38,401 bases of DNA. It comes from a virus. The DNA is taken from positions 1-38,401 of IMG/VR virus record IMGVR_UViG_3300046516_001491. The stretch is one strand, 5' to 3'. The notes beneath the pieces are model-generated. The model saw nothing but the letters and a program-made list of their open reading frames with translations. It had not been told where the DNA came from and made no database searches. A program made the translations under genes and the position numbers. Of this stretch, positions 1,771 through 34,807 are shown piece by piece; the first letter of the stretch is position 1; the number at the start of each line of letters is the position of its first letter.

Positions 1771-1856
1771 TGGCGATTGCCCTCCCTCTGGCGACGCTGC
1801 TCTTTGCCGGGATGATCCTCGGCGCTTCAAAGTGGGTGGATTGCCCCGGTGGCTGA
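1770..1856 (+). CDS. 28-residue single-span membrane micropeptide
   Basis: The frame starts in a TAATG stop/start overlap with the gene before and ends eight bases inside the portal gene. The product, MAIALPLATLLFAGMILGAS then KWVDCPGG, is one hydrophobic span with a short polar tail. The two-sided overlap suggests translational coupling that delivers ribosomes to the portal GTG start. It may be a real micropeptide working with the preceding membrane protein, or only a coupling leader. Confidence 0.4.
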   Translation: MAIALPLATLLFAGMILGASKWVDCPGG

Positions 1857-3432
1857 CACCTCCACGCCCGAACCTCGGGTGGAGAAACCGGCGCCGGTGA
1901 TTCGCGGCGAACTGCGCGACTACCTGCTCGAAGCTGGGCAATTCCCCGCAGCGGACCCGCGGCGGGAGTACATCGCCGGCGGTGACCCGTCGTTCCCGCT
2001 GGTCGGCCAGCTTGAACTGTCGCACAACGTCGATGACCTCGCCCTCGACCTGGGCATGCGGGTCTACGAGCAGATGCTCAACGACCCCACCGTCAGCGGT
2101 GCCCTGCACATCCTGATCACCGGGATTCTCTCCGGCCAGTTCCAGGTGGTGCCGGCCGTCAAGCCCGACGACGGCGAGGAAGTGGAACCGGGGAGTGATC
2201 GCGAGCAGGAGATCGAAGCGGCCCGGGTGGAAGCGGAGTTCTGCAAGCGGTCATTCCGTCGCCTCAAGGTGCCCATCAAGTCGATCCTCTACGACCTCCT
2301 CCTCGGCTCGTTCTCGCTGGGCTGCAAACTCGCCGAGAAGGTGTTCGAGGATGGCGATGGCGAGGACGCCGGCCAGATCGTACTGAAGACGCTGCGGGTG
2401 AAGCGCAACCAGTCGTGGAACTTCGTGGTCGACCCCCCTGGCAACATCGTCGCGGTGCGGGCCCTCTGCTTCGACGTCGGCCTCCACGACCTGCCCCCCG
2501 ACAAGTTCATGGTCTGCACCTGGATGCCGCGAAACAGCGACCCCCGCGGCCGCTCCCTGCTCCGCGGTGCCTACAACGGCTGGAACCTCAAGCTCAACGC
2601 CTGGCCCCTCTACTTCGCCTACCTGGAAGTGTTCGGTTCCCCCACGGCCGTGGGCATCGCCGCTCCGGCCGGCCCTGATGAGGCCCAGCGCGACGAACGC
2701 GGCAAGCCCACCGGGGTGATGCTGGCCCCGACGGAGGCCCTCGGCGAAGCGATGGCGATGTTGCGGAAGTGCGGGTACATCGCGGTGCCCAACGGGGCGG
2801 ACGTCAAGTTCTGCCAGGCGGTCGGCAACGGCGAGGCGTTCGAGAAGTTCTTCGCCTTGACGAAGAATGAGATCCTCGAGGGGATCTTGCACTCTGCTCG
2901 GGCGATGCTGGAGTCGAAGCGGAACAGCCAGGCCGACGCGGACCAGGCCCAGGATGTCGTGGGCAACATCATGATCTTCGGCCGCGAATGGGCCGAACTG
3001 CTCCTCGGTGGACGCCGCGGGTCGCTCTGCCATCAACTCGTGGAGCTCAACAAGGGCACCGAGTACGCGAACAAGTACGCCCCGCACGTGTCGCTCGGTC
3101 AGATCGAGCATCAGGACGTGGCCAAGGCAGCGGTAGCCTACGCGGCACTTGGCTATCAGATCGAGCCGTTCCAGTCGCGTGCGATCGATGCCAAACTCAG
3201 CCTGCCCGTGCGGGAGAACGTGACGACGCCCGTCGATCCCCCGCCCTCGAGCGACCCCGTGGTGTCGACGAAGCCGAAAGTGGCCCAGTTCGCCGAAGGG
3301 GAAGATGGCGCTGACCCTTTCTCGCGGCTCCGGACCTCGTTTGGCGAGCACTCTTCGCGACCGGGAAAGCCGCGGCGTACCAGGCCGGCACGCTCTCGGC
3401 CGATGGCCGCCGGAAGGCGCTCTCCGCACTGA
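1849..3432 (+). CDS. Portal protein, Mu gp29-like (DUF935 family)
   Basis: A GTG start, coupled to the overlapping micropeptide, gives 527 residues, the usual length for Mu-like portals. The product forms the dodecameric ring at the head vertex through which DNA passes. Matches to the family: an N-terminal GELRDYLLEAG and DPTVSGALHI segment, the YLEVFGSPTAVGIA core, an SARAMLESKRNSQADADQA helix, and the final FGREWAELLLGGRRGSL..LVELNKG motif. The last 36 or so residues after GADPF become Arg/Pro/Ser-rich and look out of frame. At that point a CCCTTTC heptamer allows a -1 shift into the MuF frame. The unshifted product would be the free portal, the shifted one a portal-MuF fusion of about 700 residues. 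Confidence 0.85.
   Translation: MADTSTPEPRVEKPAPVIRGELRDYLLEAGQFPAADPRREYIAGGDPSFPLVGQLELSHNVDDLALDLGMRVYEQMLNDPTVSGALHILITGILSGQFQVVPAVKPDDGEEVEPGSDREQEIEAARVEAEFCKRSFRRLKVPIKSILYDLLLGSFSLGCKLAEKVFEDGDGEDAGQIVLKTLRVKRNQSWNFVVDPPGNIVAVRALCFDVGLHDLPPDKFMVCTWMPRNSDPRGRSLLRGAYNGWNLKLNAWPLYFAYLEVFGSPTAVGIAAPAGPDEAQRDERGKPTGVMLAPTEALGEAMAMLRKCGYIAVPNGADVKFCQAVGNGEAFEKFFALTKNEILEGILHSARAMLESKRNSQADADQAQDVVGNIMIFGREWAELLLGGRRGSLCHQLVELNKGTEYANKYAPHVSLGQIEHQDVAKAAVAYAALGYQIEPFQSRAIDAKLSLPVRENVTTPVDPPPSSDPVVSTKPKVAQFAEGEDGADPFSRLRTSFGEHSSRPGKPRRTRPARSRPMAAGRRSPH
3296..3375 (+). promoter_or_regulatory. Candidate programmed -1 frameshift signal, portal to MuF
   Basis: The heptamer C CCT TTC at 3315-3321 is in the correct phase (GAC CCT TTC in portal frame; CCC TTT CTC after a slip). 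A Shine-Dalgarno-like AAGGGGA lies at about 3296-3302, roughly 12 nt upstream, the spacing that stimulates dnaX-type shifting. Downstream, CGCGGCT (3323-3329) can pair with AGCCGCG (3368-3374), with an inner CTCG/CGAG hairpin at 3336-3348. The outer stem starts only one base after the heptamer, closer than usual. The -1 frame has a TGA at 3312-3314, just before the heptamer. Confidence 0.65.
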
Positions 3433-3953
3433 TCAAGGCGGGTTGCCAGGACCTGCGCGATTCGTTCGATGCCCTGGCCGTATTCGCCCTGTCCAACGAT
3501 CTCGAGGCCGTACTGACGCGATGGTCGGGCCGAGCTTGGGCCTACCTGCGGGCGATGCGGATGGCGGGCGCCGCCCTGATGCTGGGTGCTCCCCCTATCG
3601 ACCAGCACATACGCGAGTTCCTCAGTGCCTCGGACGCGGACCAGGGCGTCTACTGGACGCGGTTCGTCGAACAGATCCTCTCGGGCCGTTTGACCCGCCG
3701 GGCGATCAAGGCTCGCGTCGCTCTCTACGGATCGGCCACCTGGCAGATCGCGATGAACGCGGTGCGATCGACGGCGATTCGCTCGGGTGAGTTCACCGAG
3801 GAAGCCCGCGTACTCGGCCGGGGCGAGGATCATTGCCAGCCGTGCATCGACTGGAGCCTGGATCGTGTGGGCTGGCAGCCGCTCGGCTCGTTGCCACCGC
3901 TGGGAGAGTCGGACTGCCTGATGAATTGCCGGTGTCACTGGAGGTTTCGCTGA
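3315..3953 (+). CDS. MuF-type head morphogenesis protein (Mu gp30/SPP1 gp7-like), reached by -1 frameshift
   Basis: This frame opens right after a TGA at 3312 and has no ATG, GTG or TTG until ATG 3555, yet it reads as normal protein from its first codons (APDLVWRALFATGKAAAYQAG). The C-terminal region has the MuF signature: TRRAIKARVALYGSATWQIA, an NAVRSTAIRSGEF segment, HCQPCIDW with a CxxC, and the terminal DCLMNCRCHWRF, typical of this family. MuF proteins sit inside the capsid near the portal and are needed for a correct head. The lack of a start supports expression as a portal fusion; a minor internal product from 3555 is possible. A sequencing error of one base is the alternative. Confidence 0.75.
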   Translation, partial: PFLAAPDLVWRALFATGKAAAYQAGTLSADGRRKALSALIKAGCQDLRDSFDALAVFALSNDLEAVLTRWSGRAWAYLRAMRMAGAALMLGAPPIDQHIREFLSASDADQGVYWTRFVEQILSGRLTRRAIKARVALYGSATWQIAMNAVRSTAIRSGEFTEEARVLGRGEDHCQPCIDWSLDRVGWQPLGSLPPLGESDCLMNCRCHWRFR

Positions 3954-3954
3954 G

Positions 3955-4182
3955 ATGTCGAGCAGGCAAGTCCCCCAGACAAAAACCCCATTCACTGCGT
4001 TCTCGGGTGTGGTCGAACGCTTTCGCCGGAACCTGAGGGACATCGAGGCGGGCACCCTGGCCCAGTTCTCTCGACACCAGCGACCGACGGAGATCCGCCG
4101 ACTCGCCGAGGATCTGGCGATCATCGAATGCCACGCCCGCGAACTGAGAGAGTCCCTGAATCGGGTAAACGCGAACCTATGA
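3955..4182 (+). CDS. Small helical hypothetical protein
   Basis: A 75-residue product starting one base after the MuF stop, so it is almost certainly translationally coupled. Most of it is predicted helix: VVERFRRNLRDIEAGTLAQF and EIRRLAEDLAIIECHAREL, with a basic polar N-terminus and no catalytic motif. It ends in an ATGA overlap with the next gene. Function is not recognised; size and place suggest a head accessory protein. Confidence 0.55.
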   Translation: MSSRQVPQTKTPFTAFSGVVERFRRNLRDIEAGTLAQFSRHQRPTEIRRLAEDLAIIECHARELRESLNRVNANL

Positions 4183-4793
4183 TCACACCCCTCGAACAAT
4201 TCCTGTGCCTCTTCGCCGGCTACAACCCCAATCAGGCCCGCGATCACCTGGGGCGGTGGATGCCGTCTGGCGAGAAGAAGGAGAAGAAGCCCAAGCGGGA
4301 GAAGAAGCCCAAACCCGCACCGAAGGGAAGGGCACGGGGCCGCGGCTCGTCGGGCGGCACCTCGGGAGCGAAGAAGCCGAAGGGTGTTCCCAAGCCGAAA
4401 GGCGTACCCAAGACTCGCGGCACCGTCAATGTGAAGGGAATCAACTTCGGCCGCGATCGCAACGCCAAGATGCGGGGCTACAAGATCGTGCAGGTCAACG
4501 CGGCGAAACTCGACAAGGTTCTTGCCCGGGATCATGGGATTCACGTCGGCAAGGGCGGCATGGGGCCGAGTGCCAAGCCGGGAGCCTATGCCAACGCCCG
4601 GAACTTCATGAGGAACGCCCGGAAGAACGGCAATATCGTCGACGTGCCCAGGGTGGTACGTGGCGCCGACGGGCACCCGTTCATCGACGACGGCCGCCAT
4701 CGCTGGGCTGCGCTCAAAGACATGGGCTTTCGCACGATTCCGATCGCCGTCCCCCGCGGTCAAGCAGCACGAATTCAGGATCAGTTCGGCTAA
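4179..4793 (+). CDS. Head-operon protein with basic linker and ParB-like domain
   Basis: A 204-residue product. The start at 4179 is set by the ATGA overlap with the previous gene; an upstream ATG at 4128 would overlap more. Residues 16-28 (NPNQARDHLGRW) match a short motif, QxRDxxGRW, common in phage head proteins. A Lys/Pro/Gly-rich basic linker spans about 30-85. The C-terminal 100 residues include PFIDDGRHRWAALKDMGF followed by TIPIAV, which matches the DGRHR signature of the ParB/sulfiredoxin-like fold. ParB-like domains can be nucleases, CTP-binding clamps or toxin domains. In the head gene cluster it could be packaged with DNA. The exact activity is unknown. Confidence 0.55.
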   Translation: MITPLEQFLCLFAGYNPNQARDHLGRWMPSGEKKEKKPKREKKPKPAPKGRARGRGSSGGTSGAKKPKGVPKPKGVPKTRGTVNVKGINFGRDRNAKMRGYKIVQVNAAKLDKVLARDHGIHVGKGGMGPSAKPGAYANARNFMRNARKNGNIVDVPRVVRGADGHPFIDDGRHRWAALKDMGFRTIPIAVPRGQAARIQDQFG

Positions 4794-4805
4794 CGAGGAA
4801 CCATC

Positions 4806-6533
4806 ATGGGCAAGTGGACTGCGGAGAGACGAAGGAACGCTCCCGAGGGGTCATTTGGAGATCCCAAGAAGCGAGCCTTTCCCGTGGAAGATCAGGAAGA
4901 TCTGGAGCACGCAGCCGAGTTGCTCCATCACGCCTCAGATCCGAGTGCCGTGCGTGCTCGGCTGACCAGAATCGCCAAGAGAAAGGGCCTTGCATTGCCC
5001 AAGTCCTGGCAGGAGACCGCAGCCATGAGTGACTCTGTCCGCTTCGATCTGGTCGGCTTTGAACTGGGGACCGGGACGATCGAGGGTGACGAGGTTCTCT
5101 ACGAGGACGTGCTCATCTTCCGCTGTGGCGACTACCCCGACAAGAAGTTCTCGCTTGACGAGAACGAAGCCGAGGAAGCCATCGAGGCGTTCGAGCCGGT
5201 GCTCAACGAACTCGCCCACGTCAACTCCCAGTTCGGCGAGAAGACCATCCTGGATGGAAAACTTGGCGAAGTCCGCGATGCCTGGATCAGCGATGCCGAC
5301 GACGGCTCAGTGGAGGTTCGCGGTGACGTCACGATCCCCCTCTGGCTCGACAAGATCTGGGAGGGGAAGAAGCAGATCTCTGCCGTCTGGGACCGCACGT
5401 CGAAGACACTCGAGGGCCTTGGCTTGGTGGTCAAGGGGCGGGTGAAGGATGCTGCTCTAATGGCTTCCTTCGCTCTGGCCAACCCGGAGGATCTGGACGC
5501 CATCTTCGCCGAGGGCGGCGGCTACGGCACTCCCCACGGTCGCATGGCCGTTCAGGGCATCCACGACATGGCGGCCCAGCACGGGGCCATGTGCTCGCCG
5601 GGAAGTTCACCCGCGATCAGTCACATAGGCGGCCCCTCGGCGGGGTTCACCAGCCGGCGGGAACGCAAGGGCTTGCAGAAGATTCACGATGCCGCAGTGG
5701 AGCACGGCGCGAGTTGCTCCATGTCGTCGGGACGATCCATGTTCGACGATAACCCCAAGCCGAAGGAGGGCACCGTGCCCAAGAACGCAACGCTGGCGAC
5801 GAAGTTCCGGGCCCTCTTCGGCGACACACTGCCGGAGGAGACCGAAGACGACCAGATTGACGAGTTCATCGAGGACCTCCGGTCCACATTCGCCAAGCCG
5901 AAGGACGATGACGATGACGACGAGGAGGTAGAGGTGAAGAACGACGATGACGACGATGAGGAGACGCCACCTCCCAAGCCGAAGCCGGGGATGAGGGGTG
6001 GCCGACGTCGGCCCAAGCCCGCAGCGATGGCGGCTGAGGTTGTCCACCGCCCCGACCCCGAGGTCGCCCGCCAGCGGGAACAGATCGAGGCACTTCAGAC
6101 GAGACTGATGGTCGCCGACGTGCGTGCCGAGGCGGTTGCCTTTGCTGACTCGATGATCAACGGACCCGTCCGCAAGGCACTCCCAACCGAGCGGGAGAAC
6201 ATCCTCTCCTGCTACATACAGGCCGCGATCGATGACCAGCGGTCCGTCGCCCGGGTGACGTTCTCCGACGTCGAAGGGAAGGCCAAGGTCGGCGGCCGGG
6301 TCGAAGCCCTCAAGGCCCTTTTCGCTCGCCGGAGTGCTCACCTGGCGTTCCAGGAGATGACCTCGGGCGACATCCCCGACGGGTCGCTCGTTCTCTTCAA
6401 TCGCGACGATCCCGCCACCCGCACCACCGCCCCGAAGAGCTACGACGACAAGCAACTCGATCAGGCCCTGATGGCCGGCTACGGCGATCTGGGGCGGCAG
6501 GCCGTCGCCATGCGGAAGAACGGTAGCGGCTGA
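4806..6533 (+). CDS. Prohead protease with C-terminal scaffold (Mu I-like)
   Basis: A 575-residue product. Residues 1-70 form a small helical domain (FPVEDQEDLEHAAELLHHAS, then RIAKRKGLALP) often found at the front of phage head proteins. Residues 75-230 resemble the Mu I-type prohead protease: LAHVNSQFGEKTILDGKLGE and QISAVWDRTSKTLEGLGLVV followed by KDAALM. Next come two copies of an IHDxAxxHGAxC motif (about 247-260 and 298-310). The C-terminal part is scaffold-like: acidic runs of Asp/Glu, then a long helix from about 415. An in-frame ATG at 5025 has its own AGGAG nine bases upstream, so the protease may also be made without the N-terminal domain. The protease should cleave scaffold and head proteins during maturation. 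Confidence 0.75.
   Translation: MGKWTAERRRNAPEGSFGDPKKRAFPVEDQEDLEHAAELLHHASDPSAVRARLTRIAKRKGLALPKSWQETAAMSDSVRFDLVGFELGTGTIEGDEVLYEDVLIFRCGDYPDKKFSLDENEAEEAIEAFEPVLNELAHVNSQFGEKTILDGKLGEVRDAWISDADDGSVEVRGDVTIPLWLDKIWEGKKQISAVWDRTSKTLEGLGLVVKGRVKDAALMASFALANPEDLDAIFAEGGGYGTPHGRMAVQGIHDMAAQHGAMCSPGSSPAISHIGGPSAGFTSRRERKGLQKIHDAAVEHGASCSMSSGRSMFDDNPKPKEGTVPKNATLATKFRALFGDTLPEETEDDQIDEFIEDLRSTFAKPKDDDDDDEEVEVKNDDDDDEETPPPKPKPGMRGGRRRPKPAAMAAEVVHRPDPEVARQREQIEALQTRLMVADVRAEAVAFADSMINGPVRKALPTERENILSCYIQAAIDDQRSVARVTFSDVEGKAKVGGRVEALKALFARRSAHLAFQEMTSGDIPDGSLVLFNRDDPATRTTAPKSYDDKQLDQALMAGYGDLGRQAVAMRKNGSG
5775..6533 (+). CDS. Nested scaffold protein from an internal GTG start
   Basis: An in-frame GTG at 5775 is preceded by AAGGAGG at 5763-5769, a perfect Shine-Dalgarno sequence at close spacing, inside the protease gene. 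The 252-residue product starts MPKNATLATKFRALFGD. It contains only the acidic, helical scaffold part: DDQIDEFIEDL, Asp/Glu runs at about 40-60, a Pro/Lys/Arg linker and a long helical C-terminus. Lambda Nu3 within C and other phage protease/scaffold pairs use the same arrangement. It would be made in excess over the protease, fill the prohead and be removed later. Function is inferred from layout and composition. Confidence 0.6.
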   Translation: MPKNATLATKFRALFGDTLPEETEDDQIDEFIEDLRSTFAKPKDDDDDDEEVEVKNDDDDDEETPPPKPKPGMRGGRRRPKPAAMAAEVVHRPDPEVARQREQIEALQTRLMVADVRAEAVAFADSMINGPVRKALPTERENILSCYIQAAIDDQRSVARVTFSDVEGKAKVGGRVEALKALFARRSAHLAFQEMTSGDIPDGSLVLFNRDDPATRTTAPKSYDDKQLDQALMAGYGDLGRQAVAMRKNGSG

Positions 6534-9315: not shown

Positions 9316-10107
9316 ATGGACGCGACGGAACTCTACCTCCGGCGGTGTGTCGTTGTGGGAACTCCGACTTGCGGTAAGGTTTGGGCTCGCTGGGCCGTGG
9401 CCTATACGCAGCTCGAATTCTTCATGATGTCTCAGCCGCCGATCCGGATCTTGAAACAGCGCTGGCCGGTCGATCTGGCGCGGAATTTCATCGTTCAGTG
9501 TGCACTCGATTGCGACAAGGAACCGACGCACATCTTCTGGCTCGACGACGATGTCTTGCCGCACCCGGCGGTGATCAAGCAGTTGTTCCACGCCGACAAG
9601 GACATCGTCACCGGGGTCTACTTCGGCAAGACGAGCCTGGCCGAGCCGATCATCTTTGGGAAACCCGGAGAGGGGGTGATCCCGTACGTTCCCGGCAGTG
9701 GCCTGCACCGGTGCTACGGCCACGGCATGGGACTGACCCTGATTCGCACCGAGGTCTTTCGCAGGATGCGGGACGAGATGGACCTCGGCGTGGACACCAA
9801 GGGCAACCCCCGATGGTTCTACGTGAGCGGGGACCGGCCTGGCGAGAAGAGGAAACTGACGGAGGATCTCTGGTTCCTGTCGAAAGCCTACGAACTGGGC
9901 TATGAGAGTTGGTTTGACTCGCACCCCAACGCGTTCGGCTTTCATATGGACCCCCACGAGGATACGGCCTATCCCGAACCTCAGTGGAAGCAGTGGATCG
10001 AGGAAGGCAGCTTCCACTTCCCGGTTCCAGAACACCTGCGGTCCACGATTCAGCCGGATCTGATCGTTGACGGACCGCCCAATCAATCCCTGGCACCTTC
10101 ATCGTAA
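9316..10107 (+). CDS. GT-A fold glycosyltransferase
   Basis: A 263-residue product. The stretch HIFWLDDDVLPHP (residues 72-84) is a classic DXD metal/nucleotide-sugar site at the end of a strand, preceded by DLARNFIVQCAL, as in phage GT2-like enzymes. Later CYGHGMGLTLIRTEVFRRM (about 133-151) matches the acceptor-side GxGxxLIR motif, and TEDLWF (182-187) the catalytic (G/T)ED motif. It should transfer a sugar from a nucleotide-sugar donor, probably in the cytoplasm. It is placed among head genes, so modifying capsid or fibre proteins is a reasonable idea; modification of host surface sugars or DNA is the alternative. Confidence 0.7.
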   Translation: MDATELYLRRCVVVGTPTCGKVWARWAVAYTQLEFFMMSQPPIRILKQRWPVDLARNFIVQCALDCDKEPTHIFWLDDDVLPHPAVIKQLFHADKDIVTGVYFGKTSLAEPIIFGKPGEGVIPYVPGSGLHRCYGHGMGLTLIRTEVFRRMRDEMDLGVDTKGNPRWFYVSGDRPGEKRKLTEDLWFLSKAYELGYESWFDSHPNAFGFHMDPHEDTAYPEPQWKQWIEEGSFHFPVPEHLRSTIQPDLIVDGPPNQSLAPSS

Positions 10108-34235: not shown

Positions 34236-34807
34236 GCGACGGCGGCGCCGAAAGCATTGCGGTGATGCACCCTCTATTCCAAGGGGGAGAAGGCGGTTCG
34301 ATTCCGACCTCGGCGCTTTCTGCGAAGTCTCTGGTGATCGAGGGAATCCCGTTCCTTGAGGCAAAACGGCTCAACCGTCTGTGGCATTCGCGTATGCCTC
34401 GCTTTGGAACCGGGTTCATCAAGAAACAGCCTTTTCTGTCATTCGGAGCTCGGCATGGTGATGTGACCTATGCCGTTGCGATCTGGTCGAACCCTGCCGC
34501 TCGTCATCTTCCGCAAGGCACCTGGTTGGAGTTACGCCGCTTGGCGACATCACCGTCAGCGCCGAGGAACTGTTGCTCTCGGATGCTACGAATCATGGAG
34601 TTGTTGATCCGTCGCCAACGTCCCGAGATCGTGAACCTGATCAGTTACCAGGACACGGAAGTCCACTCTGGATCGATCTATGCCGCTGCGGGCTGGAAGA
34701 GGACGACTTTGAGCGCGGATGGCGACGAGTGGGATCGTCCGAATCGGAGTCGGCCGAAGGTTCAATCCTCTGCTGCGAAGCAGCGTTGGGAGAAATCGCT
34801 CCTATGA
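34232..34807 (+). CDS. Mom-like GNAT-fold DNA modification enzyme candidate
   Basis: A 191-residue product, ATGA-coupled at both ends. The features of the Mom-related GNAT group are present: WHSRMPRFGTGF (51-62), AVAIWSNPAARHLPQGTWLE (81-100), LRRLATSPSAPRNCCSRML with the acyl-CoA-side helix (101-119), and ISYQDTEVHSGSIYAAAGW (137-155), which closes the fold. In Mu, Mom converts adenine to a carbamoylmethyl form that blocks restriction. Here the enzyme would modify phage DNA bases or a similar target. The N-terminal 30 residues are variable. An ordinary acetyltransferase is the alternative. Confidence 0.65.
   Translation: MSDGGAESIAVMHPLFQGGEGGSIPTSALSAKSLVIEGIPFLEAKRLNRLWHSRMPRFGTGFIKKQPFLSFGARHGDVTYAVAIWSNPAARHLPQGTWLELRRLATSPSAPRNCCSRMLRIMELLIRRQRPEIVNLISYQDTEVHSGSIYAAAGWKRTTLSADGDEWDRPNRSRPKVQSSAAKQRWEKSLL

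Follow-up and report, generated by a model that had tools for sequence, protein, structure and literature searches.

The portal gene of this virus and the MuF-like open reading frame (ORF) that follows it are very probably expressed through an SD-assisted −1 programmed frameshift, which would yield a 527-aa portal protein and, as a minority product, a 701-aa portal–MuF fusion. The stretch of DNA analysed (hereafter, the window) comprised positions 1 to 38,401 of the IMG/VR virus record IMGVR_UViG_3300046516_001491, that is, all 38,401 bp. Its left contig end lies inside a terminase gene, whose ORF is open there (PF17289 and PHROG terminase), and is followed in order by small ORFs, the portal gene, the MuF-like ORF, a gene for major capsid protein E (PF03864) and one for a tail tape-measure-type protein (PF10145). 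The ORF adjoining the MuF-like ORF on its 3′ side (4128–4793) gave no match in a Pfam profile search of the window; the C-terminal half of its product resembles a ParB-type domain (DGRHRWAALKDMGF motif). Between the capsid and tail genes, a glycosyltransferase-like ORF with a WLDDDV motif was found at 9316–10107, and a tRNA-Gly (tcc) gene was found at 34245–34317 on the plus strand. The elements of the portal/MuF junction are as follows.

1849–3432, plus strand: portal protein, 0-frame ORF of 527 aa (PF06074, PHROG portal, codon statistics)
3296–3301, plus strand: SD-like AAGGGG, probable frameshift stimulator (sequence; anti-SD duplex; kept in the diverged locus L129)
3312–3314, plus strand: TGA closing the −1 (MuF) frame on its 5′ side, directly before the heptamer (sequence)
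3315–3321, plus strand: candidate slippery heptamer C CCT TTC, with −1 re-pairing to CCC TTT (sequence; same heptamer at the L129 junction)
3315–3953, plus strand: MuF-like ORF in the −1 frame, 212 codons to the stop (ORF list, codon scan, PHROG, model, Foldseek)

The portal ORF matched Portal_Mu (PF06074; E 5.4e-29) with 102 bits against a curated cut-off of 23.9, which places it in this Pfam family, and also matched a PHROG portal profile (E 3.8e-21). The original prediction held that the MuF frame reads as good protein after the TGA at 3312 without a start for 240 nt, and that the portal frame turns to noise at the junction. ORF and codon scans agreed with the former claim, as the first ATG, GTG or TTG of the MuF frame lies at 3555, 240 nt into the open frame. 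When a codon log-odds model trained on the other window genes was applied to both frames, the highest-scoring segment ended at 3348 in the portal frame and began at 3351 in the MuF frame, confirming that the portal frame loses its coding character near 3348; the last 36 portal codons after the slip site (3322–3429), which run to the TGA at 3430–3432, looked non-coding. The MuF-frame coding signal spanned 3351 to about 3887 and thus preceded its own first start by 204 nt, a property unique among the high-scoring plus-strand ORFs of the window, barring the terminase gene cut by the contig end. Such a frame switch could also arise if a one-base indel from sequencing or assembly of the metagenome had split a gene that is in truth a continuous in-frame portal–MuF fusion. 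Errors do occur in metagenomic contigs; however, CCCTTTC contains no long homopolymer, and no other complete forward gene of the window was broken in this way. With a single such break among the complete forward genes, frame errors are not widespread in the window, and given also the comparisons below, we consider an indel very unlikely.

The identity of the downstream protein as MuF, claimed from the sequence alone, found support in its fold. Neither Pfam nor NCBIfam gave a match to this protein, and PF04233 (Phage_Mu_F) was found neither in the window nor in 12 relatives; hhalign against PF04233 members returned a weak match at the Cys motif. The protein and all twelve aligned relatives belong to PHROG_24776, a family of unknown function, and the C-terminal C-x2-C ... 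CRC motif is intact in the ORF and common to the 12 relatives. An AlphaFold model of the MuF-like frame, built from a 13-sequence alignment, reached a pLDDT of 86.5 and a pTM of 0.85, with a helix from residue 5. Among the Foldseek hits of this fold in viral models, names denoting minor capsid, head morphogenesis, MuF-like or portal proteins predominated, and the best matches had probabilities near 1; sequence and fold searches of the PDB with the MuF part yielded nothing significant. The predicted fold and the position after the portal gene therefore support a MuF-like protein, although membership in PF04233 fails. The same data bear on whether the frame is a decayed or unexpressed remnant, or a truncated C-terminal half expressed from 3555. 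The location of the first in-frame ATG at 3555 would suit either case, but the coding signal begins at 3351, the model shows a confident fold from residue 5 onwards and the shared Cys motif is intact, so that we give this explanation almost no credence.

The heptamer C CCT TTC was said to be exactly in phase, and this was read directly at 3315–3321: CCCTTTC is in phase with the portal frame at the first codon position after the −1-frame TGA, as the in-phase X XXY YYZ pattern demands. Any in-phase XXXYYYZ occurred at only 19 of 7,299 codons in the window genes, and the chance expectation of an in-phase heptamer across the roughly 12 permitted codons was ~3%. In Escherichia coli, A-site codons of the UUN and AAN types are prone to shifting, and all-pyrimidine or all-purine motifs shift better (Sharma et al. 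2014; PMC4066793). As a candidate slip site, C_CCU_UUC (all-pyrimidine, with a UUY A-site codon) fits these rules. The SD-like AAGGGGA proposed upstream of the heptamer was likewise present (3296–3302), AAGGGG ending 13 nt 5′ of CCCTTTC, and an SD-like sequence within a gene is a known −1 stimulator (PMC4066793). Its anti-SD duplex of −7.9 kcal/mol was matched by about 10% of 12-position scans in the portal gene, so that the pairing is ordinary in strength for this gene, and it is weak in L129. Since the pairing strength is unexceptional, the case for this element as a stimulator rests on its conservation in L129. The 7-bp stem suggested downstream did not hold up: in a search for a stem or pseudoknot, the folds of the RNA 3′ of the heptamer did not surpass those of dinucleotide-shuffled sequences (z 0.47 to 1.29), and the stem would also begin ~1–2 nt after the heptamer. 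Downstream structure is not always present at prokaryotic frameshift sites (PMC4066793).

We propose that most ribosomes would stay in frame across C CCU UUC and terminate at 3430, producing the 527-aa portal, while a minority, made to pause by the SD-like AAGGGG lying 13 nt upstream, would slip back by one base at this heptamer. Slipped ribosomes would continue into the MuF frame and add 210 residues to 491 portal residues, giving the 701-aa portal–MuF fusion. The portal ring consists of twelve subunits; MuF is believed to be a low-copy protein of the head interior and, in some phages, to carry toxins or enzymes. By analogy with SPP1 gp7, a few fused subunits might enter the portal ring and put MuF inside the head. 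The slip rate, which we infer together with the slipping itself, would then set the MuF copy number covalently.

Conservation of the heptamer and its spacing in related phages, which had been named as a check, was found in one diverged relative. Peptide patterns run against viral and genome contigs recovered no close relative of either the portal or the MuF of the window; a search of all viral contigs with the MuF Cys-motif pattern identified L129, an IMG/VR contig whose MuF is 37% identical to that of the window in the alignment and whose portal belongs to another family (PF04860, compared with PF06074 in the window). At its portal/MuF junction, L129 shares with the window the SD-like element, the 13-nt spacing and the heptamer (portal frame: GAA AGG GAA GAT GAC GAC GAC CCT TTC GGG TTG ATG TGA), and its MuF ORF opens in the −1 frame 6 nt 5′ of the heptamer. 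Across the SD, spacer and heptamer, 23 of 27 bases were the same, whereas the flanks agreed at 24/70 positions on the upstream side and 25/90 on the downstream side. A match this good was found for only about 9e-5 of the in-phase 18-mer pairs between the two portal genes, and for none of the 567 pairs preceding GAC. Part of the 27-nt match could stem from a shared acidic E-D-x-x-D-P-F peptide or from recombination. Scanning all viral contigs for SD-N-GACCCTTTC recovered L129 and no other match at a portal/MuF junction; five further records with the SD-heptamer pattern, representing four distinct sites, were set aside as chance occurrences in unrelated contexts. The sequence comparison thus makes L129 the best independent support for the putative frameshift junction and argues against an indel, as a separate record with another portal family is split at the same heptamer.

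L129 also bears on whether MuF is made separately, either from the ATG at 3305 behind AAGGGGAAG with a +1 shift at CTT-T or from an unusual start codon (CTC, CTG) near 3321–3429. This ATG is kept at the same place in L129 with SD-like bases before it, and free MuF genes occur elsewhere, with normal starts in some relatives (L014, L065 and L161). However, the frame opened by ATG 3305 comprises 161 codons without coding character and only 7 codons in L129, and this route would still require a shift, whereas a −1 slip from the portal frame is one event. In addition, the SD lies about 15 nt from CTT, in contrast to the 3 nt between the SD and the shift site in prfB. Separate synthesis is therefore highly improbable for the window. 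In L129, a GTG just past the portal stop is a possible MuF start.

To place the junction among other phages, loci were gathered by a portal motif pattern and then classified automatically, giving 51 with a portal and a recognised MuF. Portal and MuF formed single-frame fusions in 39 of these and separate ORFs in 12. In-frame fusion was therefore the commonest layout in the sample, which would favour the indel explanation; it also implies that the fused product is tolerated. The nearest phage relatives with PF04860 portals, Sinorhizobium Aussie and StopSmel and Microcystis Mwe-Yong1, have portal genes of 688–702 codons, and their C-terminal part extends far past the portal domain. We read these three as probable fusions by length and position, the MuF part having been missed by the automated classifier. 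The 701 aa predicted for the window fusion are close to the 688–702 aa of these in-frame genes, which are relatives of the L129 portal.

Junctions with other heptamers were also detected. In L056/L090 and L073, Portal_Mu genes end in GGA AAA AAA (TCG) stop, forming an A7 run, and the −1 frame goes on into a PF04233 domain, without a start codon for 60–63 nt.

L056, 3225–3231, plus strand: A7 junction (L090 identical at the junction)
L073, 2768–2774, reverse strand: A7 junction

The portals of L056 and L073 are 85% identical; the A7 run is kept and the position of the stop codon differs. On this sequence evidence, L056, L090 and L073 represent a second, independent candidate family of portal–MuF slip junctions. 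The MuF ORF of L056 additionally bears a PI3/PI4-kinase-like domain. In EBPR siphovirus 4 (L005, JF412299.1), CTC AAA AAA AAA CGC TGA at about 5201–5218 places an A9 run directly before the last portal codon; the −1 frame contains a MuF-PBECR2 ORF that lacks a start codon for 66 nt, and the deposited annotation begins gp16 later than this frame opens. These A-run junctions could alternatively act by transcriptional slippage. L104 was rejected as a clear slip case, as its A9 run is accompanied by an ATG that immediately follows the portal stop. L120 (reverse strand, 4474 and 3847–5343) carries a portal followed by a −1-frame MuF ORF with no start within −60 to +150 nt, and no slippery heptamer was found at this junction. 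The MuF profile gave no matches in 392 Planctomycetota genomes and two in 298 Phycisphaerae genomes, each with MuF in its own ORF and no slip junction; PF06074 was found at 11 loci in Planctomycetota genomes, with no new slip junction.

Among the closest known counterparts is phage Emery, in which gp4 and gp5 (KC595516) are annotated as a slippage pair of 58.9 and 82.5 kDa named 'head morphogenesis protein' (PMC4168068). Within 3171–5350 of this genome (L300, KC595516.1), gp4 comprises about 521 aa and the extended product carries a MuF-type C-terminal domain. An in-phase T TTT TTA lies at 4718, four codons before the gp4 stop; a GGAGG ends 13 nt 5′ of it, and the MuF part lacks a start codon over the 147 nt that follow the first stop. 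The match of gp4 to Portal_T4 was weak and below the family cut-off, and the relatives of gp4 include one annotated portal. From the sequence, gp4/gp5 is probably a portal–MuF −1 frameshift that has gone unrecognised as such, gp4 being an apparently misnamed portal. Emery thus shows the same slip-joined portal-type and MuF-type layout as the window, although the portal family and the heptamer differ, and although its authors regarded gp4 as a head morphogenesis protein rather than a portal and provided no virion proof. The window, L129 and Emery share the SD–13 nt–heptamer spacing, an agreement noticed after the fact. As an isolate sequenced at over 100-fold coverage with the same architecture and another slip site, Emery further weakens the indel explanation. 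A search of the open literature for portal–MuF frameshifts yielded two items only: the Emery paper, and a suggestion of a general kind on MuF/VIP2 pairs (PMC10885494).

Other systems resemble the proposed junction in part. The −1 frameshifts of lambda gpG/gpGT and of phage capsid and tail genes (A2, T3) have been tested experimentally (PMC5009743); there too, a fixed minor fraction is C-terminally extended by a −1 slip, but the proteins and their function differ from portal–MuF. In SPP1, a few copies of gp7 (MuF) reach the procapsid interior through binding to the portal gp6 (PMC6316719). The portal places few MuF inside in SPP1 as is proposed for the window, whereas the SPP1 genes are separate and the interaction is non-covalent, with no frameshift. 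In-frame portal–MuF fusions, such as those described in Microbacterium clusters EA/EB (PMC7302621), have the same parts in the same order and at a similar length, but with one frame every subunit has MuF. The original prediction regarded a frameshift as the switch between free and fused portal as noteworthy. Given the in-frame fusions and the Emery join, the arrangement is not wholly new. The proposed portal–MuF frameshift is a variant of a kind already known from phages, for which Emery is the one, poorly recognised, precedent. As for the join itself, a −1 frameshift at CCCTTTC remains the best reading, with the SD-like element, spacing and heptamer recurring in L129.

Beyond the window, the portal-to-MuF −1 frameshift may be a general stoichiometry device that has evolved repeatedly, in at least three portal families and with several heptamers, as an alternative to in-frame fusion; we lean slightly towards this broader reading, under which a mixed portal ring would carry a set, small number of MuF domains, and MuF-linked cargo domains, inside the head. 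Gene callers miss such MuF parts, which have no start near their beginning in the window, the A7 group and EBPR siphovirus 4. If the frameshift is true, the MuF copy number would be set covalently and the portal ring would be heterogeneous, which bears on how a twelve-fold portal carries low-copy internal proteins.
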